DNA from: Burkholderia sp. HI2500
GTDB lineage: Bacteria; Pseudomonadota; Gammaproteobacteria; Burkholderiales; Burkholderiaceae
Assembly: GCF_002223055.1 (NCBI RefSeq)
Contig: NZ_NKFL01000005.1
Coordinates: 124,001 to 188,000 of the forward strand
DNA: 64,000 nucleotides
Reading direction: 5' to 3'
The first letter of the stretch is position 1; the number at the start of each line of letters is the position of its first letter. The position numbers were made by a program, and so were the translations under genes. Under the pieces are notes generated by a model. It ran no database searches. It saw only the letters and a list, made by a program, of their open reading frames with translations, and was not told the origin of the DNA. Shown here piece after piece: positions 9,888 to 13,765 of this stretch.

Positions 9888-10009
9888 GTGTGAATCTCGC
9901 TGGGTGAAGCTGGTTTTAGCGGACGAGAGGATAGCATTGGCGGAGGGCTGGAGCCGCCGGCGATACTCGGCCGATCAGCCGACTTGCAGCCACCGGCAAC
10001 GTGGACGAT

Positions 10010-10033
10010 AATGCATCGCAATTGCGATGCATT
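10010..10033. promoter_or_regulatory. Perfect 24-bp palindrome, probable toxin-antitoxin operator
   Basis: The half-site AATGCATCGCAA is followed immediately by its exact reverse complement with no spacer. It ends 10 bp before the antitoxin start codon (10044) and one base before its GAGG ribosome-binding site. The position and symmetry fit autoregulation by the antitoxin or the toxin-antitoxin complex. Confidence 0.8.
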
Positions 10034-10043
10034 GAGGCCAATG

Positions 10044-10322
10044 ATGAAAACTGCCACTTTTCCGTCGGTTCGGGTCGAACCGGAACTGCGCGACGCCGCC
10101 GAAGATGTCCTTCAGGAAGGCGAAACGCTGTCGAGTTTCGTCGAGCAATCGATCCGCGAAGGCATCGAACGCCGCCGTCTCCACAGTGAATTTATTGCAC
10201 GCGGCCTTGCGTCACGGGACGAGGCCCGCCGTACTGGCGAATATGTGTCGTCGTCCGAGGTTCTCGAGCGGCTGGGTCGACGGCTCGACTCACTCCGTGA
10301 CAGGAAGCGTCAGGCTCAATGA
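10044..10322 (+). CDS. Antitoxin, ParD/YlcI-like ribbon-helix-helix
   Basis: A 92-residue acidic/basic protein. The N-terminal FPSVRVEPELRDAAEDVLQEGETLSSFVEQSIREGI is a ribbon-helix-helix domain of the kind found in ParD-like and YlcI/YnfO proteins; the C-terminal part is a charged tail ending in a basic helix. GAGG at 10034-10037 favours the second of two tandem ATGs. The stop overlaps the toxin start (ATGA), the usual translational coupling. It should bind the palindrome just upstream and neutralise the partner toxin. Confidence 0.85.
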   Translation: MKTATFPSVRVEPELRDAAEDVLQEGETLSSFVEQSIREGIERRRLHSEFIARGLASRDEARRTGEYVSSSEVLERLGRRLDSLRDRKRQAQ

Positions 10323-10627
10323 CGTATACGGTTCGCTTTACGCTTGCGGCAACCGATGATCTGGACCGACTCTATGCGTTCGTCGTCGATCGGGACGAGG
10401 CCGATGTCGACGTGGCCGAGCGCGCGCTGGCGGCCATTGCTTCGGGCATCGCTACGCTCGAATCCTCCCCGTTCACCTGCCGTAAAGTCCATCCGTCGAT
10501 GCCGTTTCTGCGGGAGTTGATCATCCCGTTCGGTGCGTCCGGCTATGTTGCATTGTTCGAAATCGACGACAGCCATACGGTGACGATCCTTGCCGTGCGT
10601 CACCAGCGGGAAAGCGACTACCACTGA
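10319..10627 (+). CDS. RelE/ParE-family toxin
   Basis: A 102-residue protein of the RelE/ParE superfamily. The start MTYTVRFTLAATDDLDRLYAFV and the C-terminal strand VTILAVRHQRESDYH are characteristic. In ParE-like members the target is DNA gyrase and in RelE-like members ribosome-bound mRNA; the sequence alone does not separate these here. It overlaps its antitoxin by 4 bp. Confidence 0.88.
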   Translation: MTYTVRFTLAATDDLDRLYAFVVDRDEADVDVAERALAAIASGIATLESSPFTCRKVHPSMPFLRELIIPFGASGYVALFEIDDSHTVTILAVRHQRESDYH

Positions 10628-10640
10628 CGACGAGGGTCTC

Positions 10641-10895
10641 ATGAACTCGACCGACAAGAAGATCTGGTTTCCGGCGAAACGCTACGGCTGGGGCTGGGGG
10701 TTGCCGGTCGCGTGGCAGGGCTGGGTCGTGCTGATGCTGTTCATGATCGGGATCGTTGGGAGCGCGTGGCTTTTGCCGCCGCACAAGTCGCCGTTCGCGT
10801 ACGGCGGGTGCATCGTGGGGTTAACCGTGATCCTGATTACCGTGTGCTGGATCAAGGGCGAGAAACCCCGGTGGCGATGGGGCAAGGACGATTGA
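10641..10895 (+). CDS. Small membrane protein of unknown function
   Basis: An 84-residue protein with two hydrophobic helices (WVVLMLFMIGIVGSAWLL and GGCIVGLTVILITVCWI) and a tryptophan-rich, basic C-terminus (KGEKPRWRWGKDD). The N-terminus WFPAKRYGWGWGLPVAWQGW is aromatic. It begins 13 bp after the toxin gene and may be co-transcribed with it. I do not recognise a family with confidence. Confidence 0.7.
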   Translation: MNSTDKKIWFPAKRYGWGWGLPVAWQGWVVLMLFMIGIVGSAWLLPPHKSPFAYGGCIVGLTVILITVCWIKGEKPRWRWGKDD

Positions 10896-11121
10896 ACGCT
10901 AGAGTCAGTGCCCGGCTCTACTTAGTACTCGCACCGACTTCGATCACGAACTGTTTGTCACTACACCCGCCTTTACGCAAACGACAGCATCGCCCTCACC
11001 GGACTCGAAGATCGCGATACCAGCGTCTCGTGACCATCCTTACAATCACCTCCACAAGCAAAGCTGAATCTCCGATCACTCGTCCCCATCGATCTCGGTC
11101 AACACATCAGGACTTGAAAAC

Positions 11122-11156
11122 GTCCAATTTGGACAGTAACATGTCGACATTGGACA
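11122..11156. promoter_or_regulatory. Inverted and direct repeats before the ParA-like gene
   Basis: GTCCAA-T-TTGGAC (11122-11134) is a perfect inverted repeat with a single central base. TTGGACA occurs at 11129-11135 and again at 11150-11156, 21 bp (two helical turns) apart. The region is A+T-rich and lies 22-57 bp upstream of ATG 11179, a suitable place for an operator or promoter. Confidence 0.5.
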
Positions 11157-11178
11157 ATTTCACCTTGTGGAGCACGCG

Positions 11179-12201
11179 ATGGATGTCAAGTACGCATACT
11201 GGAACAATAAGGGCGGCACCGGCAAAACGAGCCTGTGCTTTCAATCGATCGTTCGCTACGCTGAAAAACATCCGAAAAAACGCATCTTGGCGGTCGACAT
11301 GTGCCCGCAGGCCAACCTATCCGAGTTGATGCTTGGCGGGCTGAATAATAAGGGCAGCGAGAAGCTACTGGAGCGACAAGGCTTGGTGCCCAGATGCAGT
11401 GTTGGTGGGTACTTTCAACTCCGGCTGCCAGCGCCGTACGCCCCGCCAATTTTCAACGCGCATGACTTCATCACGAAGCCAAACAGCTACAACCAGGGCG
11501 TACCCTCAAACGTCGATCTGGTATGCGGTGATCCAATGTTGGAGCTCCAATCGAATGCCGTAAACACGCTTGCCAACAACCAAATTCCGGGAACGAATCC
11601 GTGGATTGCCGTCGTCGATTGGTTGAAAGATTTCCTGGATCAGCTTACCGACGAATACGACGTGGTCTTTCTCGATTGCAATCCTAGCTTCTCACTCTAT
11701 ACGCAGATTGCCCTCTCTACAGCAGACCGCATTGTGCTTCCCGTGATGGCGGACGACTCTTCCCGGCGGGCAATCCAAAATGCATTTTCCCTTATCTATG
11801 GCCTGAAACTACCGTCGGAAATTTACGCTGCGTACGCCTTCGCAACAAAGCTGAAGGATGCAAAACGCCCACTTCCCAAAGTTCATCTGATCGTCAAGAA
11901 TCGACTGACGCAGTATATGGGTGCCGCATCGGCCTATGCCGCCGTATTGCATGCTATCGAAGGTGACGTGAGCCAACTTTTGAAATCGAATCCTGAAATC
12001 TTCGGCTTCAAGAAAGTGGCAGCTGGGTTCGTGGAAATTCGAGATTTTCAGACAACCGGCGTGGTAGCTTTCGCAAAGGGGCTTCCGTTCTCGAAACTCC
12101 CGGTCGGCAAACAATCCATCAACGGCCATCGTGTGCAGGTGAAAGAGGACTACCTCGTCAATGCAAAGAAGGCGATGGATGATCTAGTCGCGAAACTGTG
12201 A
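11179..12201 (+). CDS. ParA/MinD-type ATPase of an accessory two-gene system
   Basis: A 340-residue P-loop ATPase of the ParA class. It has the deviant Walker A KGGTGKTS (11-18) with the signature lysine K11, an A-prime motif ILAVDMCPQANLS around D40, and Walker B DVVFLDCNPSF around D166. GGAG at 11169-11172 selects ATG 11179. No ParB-like partner or centromere array is nearby; instead the next gene encodes an Mrr-like nuclease domain, with only 53 bp between the stop and its likely ATG. Compared with neighbours it uses more A/T-ending codons, consistent with transfer. It may act as an NTP-dependent sensor or scaffold for the nuclease; that role is inference. Confidence 0.85.
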   Translation: MDVKYAYWNNKGGTGKTSLCFQSIVRYAEKHPKKRILAVDMCPQANLSELMLGGLNNKGSEKLLERQGLVPRCSVGGYFQLRLPAPYAPPIFNAHDFITKPNSYNQGVPSNVDLVCGDPMLELQSNAVNTLANNQIPGTNPWIAVVDWLKDFLDQLTDEYDVVFLDCNPSFSLYTQIALSTADRIVLPVMADDSSRRAIQNAFSLIYGLKLPSEIYAAYAFATKLKDAKRPLPKVHLIVKNRLTQYMGAASAYAAVLHAIEGDVSQLLKSNPEIFGFKKVAAGFVEIRDFQTTGVVAFAKGLPFSKLPVGKQSINGHRVQVKEDYLVNAKKAMDDLVAKL

Positions 12202-12254
12202 TCGTAGCTTCGCGGGCACCGAACGAGATTGCAACCCAAGCAAAGGTTATTTCG

Positions 12255-13214
12255 ATGGCCGACGCATTTCACTATCCACCAGAGCTGCTTGAATTGCTCG
12301 TTGAGACTATTCCTCGCCTCAGCAGAGCAAAGAAAGGCGTCATACTCTTCCTGCGCGGCGCCGGGGTTGCCGAAGAGGATCTTGCCGAAGTGGAGCGCAC
12401 CGTAACAATAGACCCGCGCTCCATCAGCAAATTCGAGATCGTCCGTAGGGTTCTCGTAAAGGTCAATGCACGTGGTGATAGTGGCCTGCGTCCTCGGCGC
12501 GAGATTATTAAGCGCGTGGTGGAGTTCGAAAGCTTCGAAACCTGCTGGCCGGAAGACCAGATGAAAGCGAAAGGGTTTGTAGCAAGCGTTCGAGAAACAG
12601 TCAATGCAAAGGATTCGTTCACGCGCATGAAGCAAGAGCGAGAAGCTGAGCGCGAAGCCACCCGAGCTCGCCAGCTTGCAGAGCAAGCAGCAACAGCCGA
12701 GAAACGCACCAAGATACAAGAGGTGAGCACGCGACTTGCAGCACTATTCGGCATGAATGACCAGCCCCATGAACGGGGAAAATTGCTTGAAAGCGTTCTC
12801 AATGACCTTTTCAAAGCTTATGGGATTCTGGTCCGAGAGGATTTCCGCCGCAAAGACCCGGACACATCGGTTGTAATTGAGCAAATCGACGGAGTGATAG
12901 AACTCGACGGCGTGCTGCATATTGTGGAAATGAAGTGGCTCAACTCGCCAGTCGGCACCGCCGAATTTTTTCCTCATCTCAGTCGCGTGTTCCTCCGTGC
13001 GAACGCTAACGGCATCTTCATTTCAGCCGCTGGCTTCACCGATCCTGTTATTCGGGAATGCACCACCGCACTCACTCAGAAGACGATGTTGCTCTGTTCA
13101 TTGCACGAAATCGTCATGCTATTGCAGCGAGGCGACGATCTAATTCCATTTTTTAAGAAAAAATCGCATGCAGCCATTGTCAACAAGAATCCATTTCTAC
13201 AGATTCTCTCGTAA
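12255..13214 (+). CDS. Protein with Mrr-like PD-(D/E)XK nuclease domain, partner of the ParA-like ATPase
   Basis: A 319-residue protein in three parts. Residues 1-118 form a helical domain I cannot assign; 120-160 are a charged coiled coil; 165-319 look like a restriction-endonuclease fold. In the last, RGKLLESVLNDLFKAYG (E180), QIDGVIELDGVLHIVEMKW (D212, E225, K227) and ANGIFISAAGFTDP fit the Mrr-type active site and following strand. ATG 12255 has AAGG eight bases upstream; a GTG at 12198 overlapping the ParA stop (GTGA) would add 19 residues. The gene ends in A+T-rich sequence, after which core-like sequence resumes. Nucleolytic defence is likely but unproven. Confidence 0.78.
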   Translation: MADAFHYPPELLELLVETIPRLSRAKKGVILFLRGAGVAEEDLAEVERTVTIDPRSISKFEIVRRVLVKVNARGDSGLRPRREIIKRVVEFESFETCWPEDQMKAKGFVASVRETVNAKDSFTRMKQEREAEREATRARQLAEQAATAEKRTKIQEVSTRLAALFGMNDQPHERGKLLESVLNDLFKAYGILVREDFRRKDPDTSVVIEQIDGVIELDGVLHIVEMKWLNSPVGTAEFFPHLSRVFLRANANGIFISAAGFTDPVIRECTTALTQKTMLLCSLHEIVMLLQRGDDLIPFFKKKSHAAIVNKNPFLQILS

Positions 13215-13288
13215 GCCGCATGGCGAGACGTAAGCCGAAAATATAGTCCCACTCACGAAGTAATCGTATTCCTGCACAAGTGCAGACT

Positions 13289-13765
13289 CTAATCGAGCAC
13301 CTGCCGCCACTGCGCGAGCTTCTGCTCGAACGTCAGCATCGCATTCGCCGGGCTCGACGAAGGCAGCACGAGCGTGTCGTACCCCGCCGCGCCGATCACC
13401 TCTGCGAACCGCCCCGCCGTCTTGCCGTTGAAACACACGCGCTTGAGCAACGGCGCATGCTCGCGCAACGACGCGAAATCGTTCGGCTTCGCATGCCGGA
13501 TCGCCGAATCGAGGCTGCCCTCACGATGGCACGCGGCCAATACATCCCAGATTCCGATCCCGTGCGACAGCACACGCTCGAGCCGCGCGTCGTACGCGAA
13601 CTCGTGCAGCCCGTGCTCGCCGAGCACAGTGCCGAGCAACCGCCAGAACTGGTTGCGCGGATGCGCGTAATACTGCGCGGCATCGAGCGACGCCTCGCCC
13701 GGAAAACTGCCGAGGATCATCGTGTGCGTATTCGCCGCGACGACCGGCGGAAAACCCCGCAACAT
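13289..13765 (-). CDS. DNA-deoxyinosine (hypoxanthine) glycosylase, UDG superfamily
   Basis: A 158-residue member of the uracil-DNA glycosylase superfamily, nearest to the hypoxanthine-DNA glycosylase group (UDG family 6). The motif-1 segment ILGSFPGEASL and YYAHPRNQFW are clear, as is the motif-2-like LPSSSPANA near the C-terminus. It would excise deaminated adenine from DNA. Its ATG shares one base with the ubiC stop (TGATG), so translation is coupled. Confidence 0.88.
   Translation of the reverse strand: MLRGFPPVVAANTHTMILGSFPGEASLDAAQYYAHPRNQFWRLLGTVLGEHGLHEFAYDARLERVLSHGIGIWDVLAACHREGSLDSAIRHAKPNDFASLREHAPLLKRVCFNGKTAGRFAEVIGAAGYDTLVLPSSSPANAMLTFEQKLAQWRQVLD

Follow-up and report, generated by a model that had tools for sequence, protein, structure and literature searches.

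ParA-type ATPases are usually known for the positioning of DNA and of cell machines. Phage defence by such a protein is described for GiPD474, which excerpts of PMC12724215 present as a solitary ParA-like ATPase from the immunity region of the Gifsy-1 prophage of Salmonella 4/74. Its gene is 1086 bp long, GGVGKT occupies residues 29-34, and the protein lowers plating of phages FO1, T4 and Alf5 and leaves six of nine tested phages unaffected. In 2013, dyads of ParA/Soj with a MAE_18760 HEPN protein were postulated to be toxin-antitoxin systems (PMC3710099, available passages). ParI, encoded on a genomic island of Pseudomonas putida, serves as an orphan-ParA precedent in the available sections of PMC8544851 and PMC9044938, and destabilises plasmid pCAR1 (cited in PMC8544851). 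The locus described here lies in a 64,000-nucleotide stretch of Burkholderia sp. HI2500 (contig NZ_NKFL01000005.1, positions 124,001 to 188,000), termed the window, and consists of a ParA-like ATPase gene followed by a gene for an Mrr-like nuclease. The pair may be a mobile two-gene phage-defence cassette, a reading to which we give a probability of roughly 0.45. It draws on the gene order, intact motifs, a modelled fold, a conserved operator, joint insertion, recurrence and remote sequence kinship with a relative of an ATPase whose defence activity was tested.

Comparison with GiPD474 was made through an E. coli homologue as a stand-in for the GiPD474 sequence. This 361-residue protein (locus L160, WP_000606712.1) has the same gene size and motif position as GiPD474, and a repressor-type gene adjoins it. 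Both GiPD474 and the window ATPase are ParA-like AAA_31 proteins; the stand-in and the window ATPase share the motifs WNNKGGxGK, CPQxNxSE and DCNPSFxxYT and are 30% identical over 331 residues (E value 2e-48). On this alignment the window ATPase is distant kin of a GiPD474 relative. The identity, measured through the stand-in, is under the 70% limit that the excerpts of PMC12724215 give for calling GiPD474 homologues, and GGVGKT in GiPD474 contrasts with GGTGKT in the window protein. GiPD474 is a single gene beside a phage repressor and has no nuclease, whereas the window copy is paired and sits in a chromosomal variable site; some other members of the ParA family are, like GiPD474, single genes beside a repressor in a prophage immunity region. 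The initial annotation had proposed that no named defence system consists of this pair. That part stands, as neither protein matched any family of the PADLOC (2023) models at E<=1 and no description of a ParA-nuclease pair was found in the open PMC literature, so far as its accessible text extends. The ATPase half alone is not new to defence, given its distant kinship with a relative of GiPD474 (PMC12724215, excerpts).

The features of the locus are as follows.

10892..13303, no strand: inserted low-GC (guanine plus cytosine) segment with both genes; in relative genome G246 the left flank match stops at 10891 and the right begins at 13304
11114..11142, forward strand: sigma-70-like promoter TTGAAA-17-TAACAT ahead of the ParA gene, with palindrome 1 inside the 17-bp spacer
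11121..11135, no strand: palindromic site 1, CGTCCAATTTGGACA
11142..11156, no strand: palindromic site 2, TGTCGACATTGGACA, 21 bp from site 1
11179..12201, forward strand: ParA-like ATPase, 340 amino acids, WNNKGGTGKT ... DCNPSFxxYT subfamily (AAA_31, phrog_164), intact open reading frame (ORF)
12202..12254, forward strand: intergenic stretch of 53 bp between the ParA and nuclease genes
12255..13214, forward strand: Mrr-like PD-(D/E)XK nuclease, 319 amino acids, start ATG at 12255, intact ORF

The ParA gene is intact, and the motifs first read from it are all present: a deviant Walker A (KGGTGKT, with K11 and K16), Walker A' (D40) and Walker B (D166), the four residues being invariant in a 41-row family alignment (A4). 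The protein matches AAA_31 with 67.7 bits and phrog_164 with an E value of 1e-35, and its homologues fall into 3579 protein clusters at E<=1e-3. The nearest ParA among the matches listed is from Burkholderia lata (P0123, 99% identity), and no nuclease contig of the same size as its contig (161811) was found among the relatives listed.

The nuclease gene likely starts at ATG 12255, because 110 of the 120 nuclease relatives listed share the resulting size of 319 residues; a GTG-started form of 338 residues was dropped on the sizes of these relatives. The initial annotation had offered two spacings, of which the 53-bp gap is retained and the GTGA overlap is not, the upstream GTG that creates the overlap being probably not in use. 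Neither a promoter-like nor a terminator-like match is present in the gap. The protein has a helical N-terminal part (residues ~9-89), a long helix (99-164) and a nuclease domain (~171-309). Its fold was modelled as PD-(D/E)XK, as predicted, with the catalytic D and ExK present; the listed fold matches cover residues 148-319. Among the residues named at first, D212, E225, K227 and the GIFISAAGF strand were read correctly, and the first acid is E179 rather than E180. E179, D212, E225 and K227 are kept in 62/62 aligned relatives, and homologues fall into 1726 protein clusters at E<=1e-3; with so many homologues on both sides, the two genes are more than a chance reading. No significant match for the nuclease came from searching the sequences of solved structures. 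Catalytic residues and modelled fold fit Mrr_cat (PF04471), although the window protein, at 13.5 bits, is under the Pfam cut-off of 21 bits; 39 of the 62 aligned relatives match at E<=1e-3, and the relative at L009 reaches 33.6 bits. The nuclease also recalls ABC-3C systems in that a 47%-identical nuclease gene lies immediately 5' of ABC-3C genes, and differs in that no ABC ATPase or middle component was recognised beside the window pair. At L068-L071, L073 and L009, a nuclease gene of 46-49% identity precedes a gene annotated as, or resembling, an ABC-3C component. The second gene of L009 encodes weak Mrr_cat-like and CTD6 domains, so that such operons may hold two nucleases.

The two genes look like a single joint insert at a variable site because both are low in GC (0.519 in each gene; 0.661 across the window) and the flanks nearly join in G246, where their matches lie only 38 bp from each other. 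The insert is 2.4 kb long in a genome of 8.26 Mb, and relatives G304 and G258 carry about 1.1 kb of different DNA at its position.

That the genes also occur together elsewhere is borne out by Paraburkholderia acidicola (L005), in which a ParA gene (94% identity) is followed in identical order, after a gap of 50 bp, by a nuclease gene (82%); general co-occurrence is not, as the counts below make plain. The L005 pair sits between genes that by eye resemble those of purine catabolism. Four further pairs were inferred from equal longest-contig sizes in two lists of 120 relatives, one for the nuclease and one for ParA, matched by eye: P0008/P0124 (2463 bp), P0027/P0137 (2413 bp), P0037/P0140 (2426 bp) and P0074/P0172 (49390 bp). 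By a rough hand estimate, ~0.35 chance matches are expected in the range from 2050 to 2500 bp. One more equal size, 1517 bp, was discarded as too short for both genes. All six paired ParAs fall into one 11-row clade of a 99-row tree (support 91) and, in a denser tree, within an 18-row clade of 59 (support 97). These are quick trees that carry a long-branch warning, the clade also includes rows whose gene neighbours were not at hand, and the result is in part built in, because the search for inferred pairs covered just the 120 closest relatives. Across the six pairs, ParA and nuclease identities co-vary (r=0.74, a value reached in 16 of 720 permutations). In the nuclease tree, the window protein groups with those of P. 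acidicola and P0008 (support 0.667), and P0027 joins at a 21-row clade. A family ParA (P0218) and an ABC-3C-type nuclease (P0254) have the same longest contig size, 37051 bp, and may share a contig.

Several observations weigh against the cassette reading. The clade of paired ParAs includes three loci without the nuclease (L062, L063 and, in the denser tree, L075), and the nucleases of the inferred pairs P0037 and P0074 are distant from the window protein. ParA is present at 2/7 loci that carry a nuclease of at least 60% identity (the window, L001-L005 and L008), and the nuclease at only one, L005, of 103 other family-ParA loci (the window's own excluded, some overlapping). Genome searches, which scored the best few candidates per genome, found ParA in six and the nuclease in five (one a fragment with stops) of 299 family genomes at E<1e-30, with both in the window's genome alone. 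The same genome was the only one with both among 321 class genomes, in which ParA was found in five (E<=1e-30) and the nuclease in one (E<=1e-20). DNA of the pair was found in 1/65 genus genomes, namely the window's own. In addition, GiPD474 is active as a single gene, which makes a nuclease dispensable (PMC12724215, excerpts). A search for the nuclease only found it in 4 of 399 order genomes. The nuclease genes without ParA have diverse neighbours, including DUF2321 at L001, XRE/M78 at L002 and a type I restriction-modification-like system at L003 (by eye); L004 and L008 also lack ParA. An obligate two-gene system is rejected on the nuclease-free ParA loci, the ParA-free nuclease loci and the genome samples. 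We conclude that the pair is a real and recurrent, yet facultative, cassette.

The initial annotation had reported no parS array. This needs qualification: the palindromes GTCCAATTTGGAC and GTCGACATTGGAC lie within 11122-11156, in the ParA promoter, at a spacing of 21 bp, and such sites recur ahead of ParA relatives carried by prophages and plasmids. Across the 8.26-Mb genome the double site is present at this one place, against zero for a reversed-pattern control. The promoter itself is one of two promoter-like matches in the scanned stretch, where 1.2 are expected by chance. In the wider ParA family, at least two sites were found in 11/78 distinct upstream regions (mononucleotide shuffles predict 0.3; L103 is among the 11 through a 9-bp tandem run) and at least one in 22/78 (5.85 expected), the 78 regions being partly related and the counts therefore not independent. 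Within the GGTGKT subfamily, a site is present in 18 of 45 distinct upstream regions (L091 and L103, with 9-bp runs, excluded). Neighbouring sites are exactly 21 bp apart in 12 of 14 cases, and the remaining two spacings come from a 9-bp run at L108. A site falls within a promoter-like spacer in 11 of these 18 upstream regions, a count from a lenient search that favours this outcome and was run without a shuffle control. For 12 nuclease genes that lack ParA, the preceding 200 bp contained no site. Enterobacterial ParA relatives have another upstream repeat, with a lag of 19; L061, L065 and many of L081-L101 (Salmonella/Pantoea type) carry a palindromic repeat of the GGTTAAC/GGTAAAC type, and runs of 9-bp repeats (GTCCACGAT-like) replace the palindromes at L091, L103 and L108. 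The simplest inference is that the ATPase binds its own upstream sites, because ParA is the sole gene seen to be common to the loci and the repeat varies with the ParA branch. As the palindromes sit inside the promoter, they are at least as likely to be an operator as a centromere-like array.

Relatives of the window ParA are common in mobile DNA. In a scan of viral contigs they were encoded in 133 of 146 candidate stretches, 79 loci being kept, and a relative of the nuclease was encoded in 1 of 40 stretches, the two scans having used differing search patterns. Judged by eye from an unannotated ORF list, the majority of the 79 viral ParA loci look unpaired, four have a HEPN-type gene, and none has the window's nuclease. 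Family ParA genes lie 3' of a repressor-like gene in phage phi297, Klebsiella phage ST11-VIM1phi8.2, an IncY plasmid and a small Salmonella plasmid record, and, on plasmids of Xanthomonas and Cryobacterium, close to relaxase genes. A different gene with a PDDEXK domain is divergent from the adjoining ParA on the Cryobacterium plasmid (L066). The 5.9-kb Salmonella "plasmid" record L061 (CP148862.1) is mostly prophage-immunity-like, with CII, repressor-like, ParA and antitermination genes. Plasmid pXfc32 carries a separate 208-residue ParA with a small downstream gene, and its family ParA stands apart; the family member is therefore probably not the partition gene of that plasmid.

In one ParA clade, apart from that of the window, a gene of ~200 codons lies immediately 3' of ParA (L122:1473-2084, L123:7026-7637, L124:4941-5570, L126:7026-7628 and L023:2526-3128). 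Three of these downstream genes were scanned, and all three score above the Pfam cut-off for HEPN_RiboL-PSP (PF18735). The window pair resembles the ParA/Soj-HEPN dyads in having a nuclease-type gene directly 3' of a ParA-like ATPase, and differs in its partner, modelled as PD-(D/E)XK instead of a HEPN presumed to be a ribonuclease (RNase), and in its separate ParA clade.

Taken as a phage-defence cassette, the window ParA is most likely a defence ATPase of prophage origin, probably self-regulated, to which an Mrr-like nuclease effector was added. Its source would be the family of prophage and plasmid genes, mostly nuclease-free and many with a palindromic operator of 21-bp spacing at the promoter, one branch of which would have acquired a downstream, co-transcribed nuclease. 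The ATP-bound ATPase would bind DNA, which it may patrol, and would use the operator to limit expression of its own operon. On phage entry it would switch state and license or recruit the nuclease, which would then cut phage DNA, or all DNA; a defence role of the window copy and the gating of its nuclease belong to this proposal. A broader idea, which we consider rather unlikely, is that the ParA subfamily works as a modular switch of immunity. It would recognise its own palindromic array of 21-bp spacing, monitor the state of DNA and, depending on the branch, act without a partner (GiPD474 kin), with a HEPN RNase or with an Mrr-like deoxyribonuclease. If so, gating by ParA-type DNA-patrolling dimers would be a principle not yet described for phage defence, and a phage-defending ParA family with branch-specific nucleases would tie immunity to a classic switch of cell biology. 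The question is directly testable, thanks to the conserved operator and to the contrast of paired with unpaired genes.

Other explanations fit parts of these data. The two genes could be independent defence genes that lie side by side, a GiPD474-like single-gene ATPase and a self-sufficient type IV-like restriction enzyme, which is also present by itself or within other defence loci. This would agree with the nuclease genes at L001, L002, L003, L004 and L008 that lack ParA, with the 47%-identical kin that precede ABC-3C genes and with the 102 of 103 other family-ParA loci that lack the nuclease, but order and spacing are alike in two species, the insert is shared, pairing is clade-restricted and identities co-vary, and we regard independence as unlikely, if not strongly so. 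A toxin-antitoxin-like module, in which the ATPase restrains a toxic nuclease as postulated for the ParA/HEPN dyads (PMC3710099, available passages), would likewise suit the HEPN-type genes that adjoin related ParAs. It is improbable, since five of the seven close nuclease loci lack ParA, so that the nuclease is not obligatorily restrained by it, and most examined ParA loci lack the nuclease.

Interference with plasmids, in which an orphan ParA upsets the partition of incoming plasmids and the nuclease assists, has a precedent in the effect of ParI on pCAR1 (cited in PMC8544851, available sections). ParI resembles the window ATPase as an orphan ParA on a genomic island, yet it acts on plasmid partition, and one plasmid with a family ParA has another ParA of its own; this explanation is quite improbable. 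Least of all do we expect a remnant or ordinary plasmid or prophage partition ATPase, which is very improbable even though the window ParA resembles partition ATPases in motifs and sequence and the 21-bp palindromic array could serve as a centromere. The window copy lies in a chromosomal insert, and no ParB-like gene is seen adjoining it, as first reported; in place of a ParABS arrangement, its neighbours are a ParDE-like pair, a small gene and a DNA-glycosylase-like gene (by eye). Plain plasmid partition was rejected as the principal explanation on the separate 208-residue ParA and small downstream gene of pXfc32.

The insert is flanked by the small gene and the DNA-glycosylase-like gene, the latter beside htpG (glycosylase and htpG assigned by eye). 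Immediately to its left, at 9984-10627 of the window, a gene for a YlcI/YnfO-type protein overlaps a ParE-like toxin gene; the two are likely a ParDE-like toxin-antitoxin pair, and the stretch is absent from relatives G246 and G304. In other members of the genus, the insert site holds differing cargo. A scan of 40 ORFs, picked by eye out of 103 called in 20 regions, found two YhcG-type nucleases (PADLOC candidate PDC-S02), two matches each to PDC-M05A and PDC-M05B, some toxin-antitoxin-like genes, three PhoD phosphatases and many more ORFs that are unrelated or have no match. Because candidate defence genes are mixed with PhoD and unrelated genes, this is a hot spot for varied cargo rather than a pure defence island. 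As to the defence-rich neighbourhood raised in the initial annotation, some other genomes show toxin-antitoxin-like and candidate defence genes here, among much else. At L171, L175, L177, L185 and L189, YhcG nucleases, PDC-M05 candidates and a RelE/HigA-like pair replace the ParA-nuclease pair. A P-loop ATPase-like ORF (MSHIHFIGGEKGGVGKS), different from ParA, was also seen by eye to recur in this hot spot in other genomes, at L171:4196-4891, L172:4456-5151 and L187:1592-2437.
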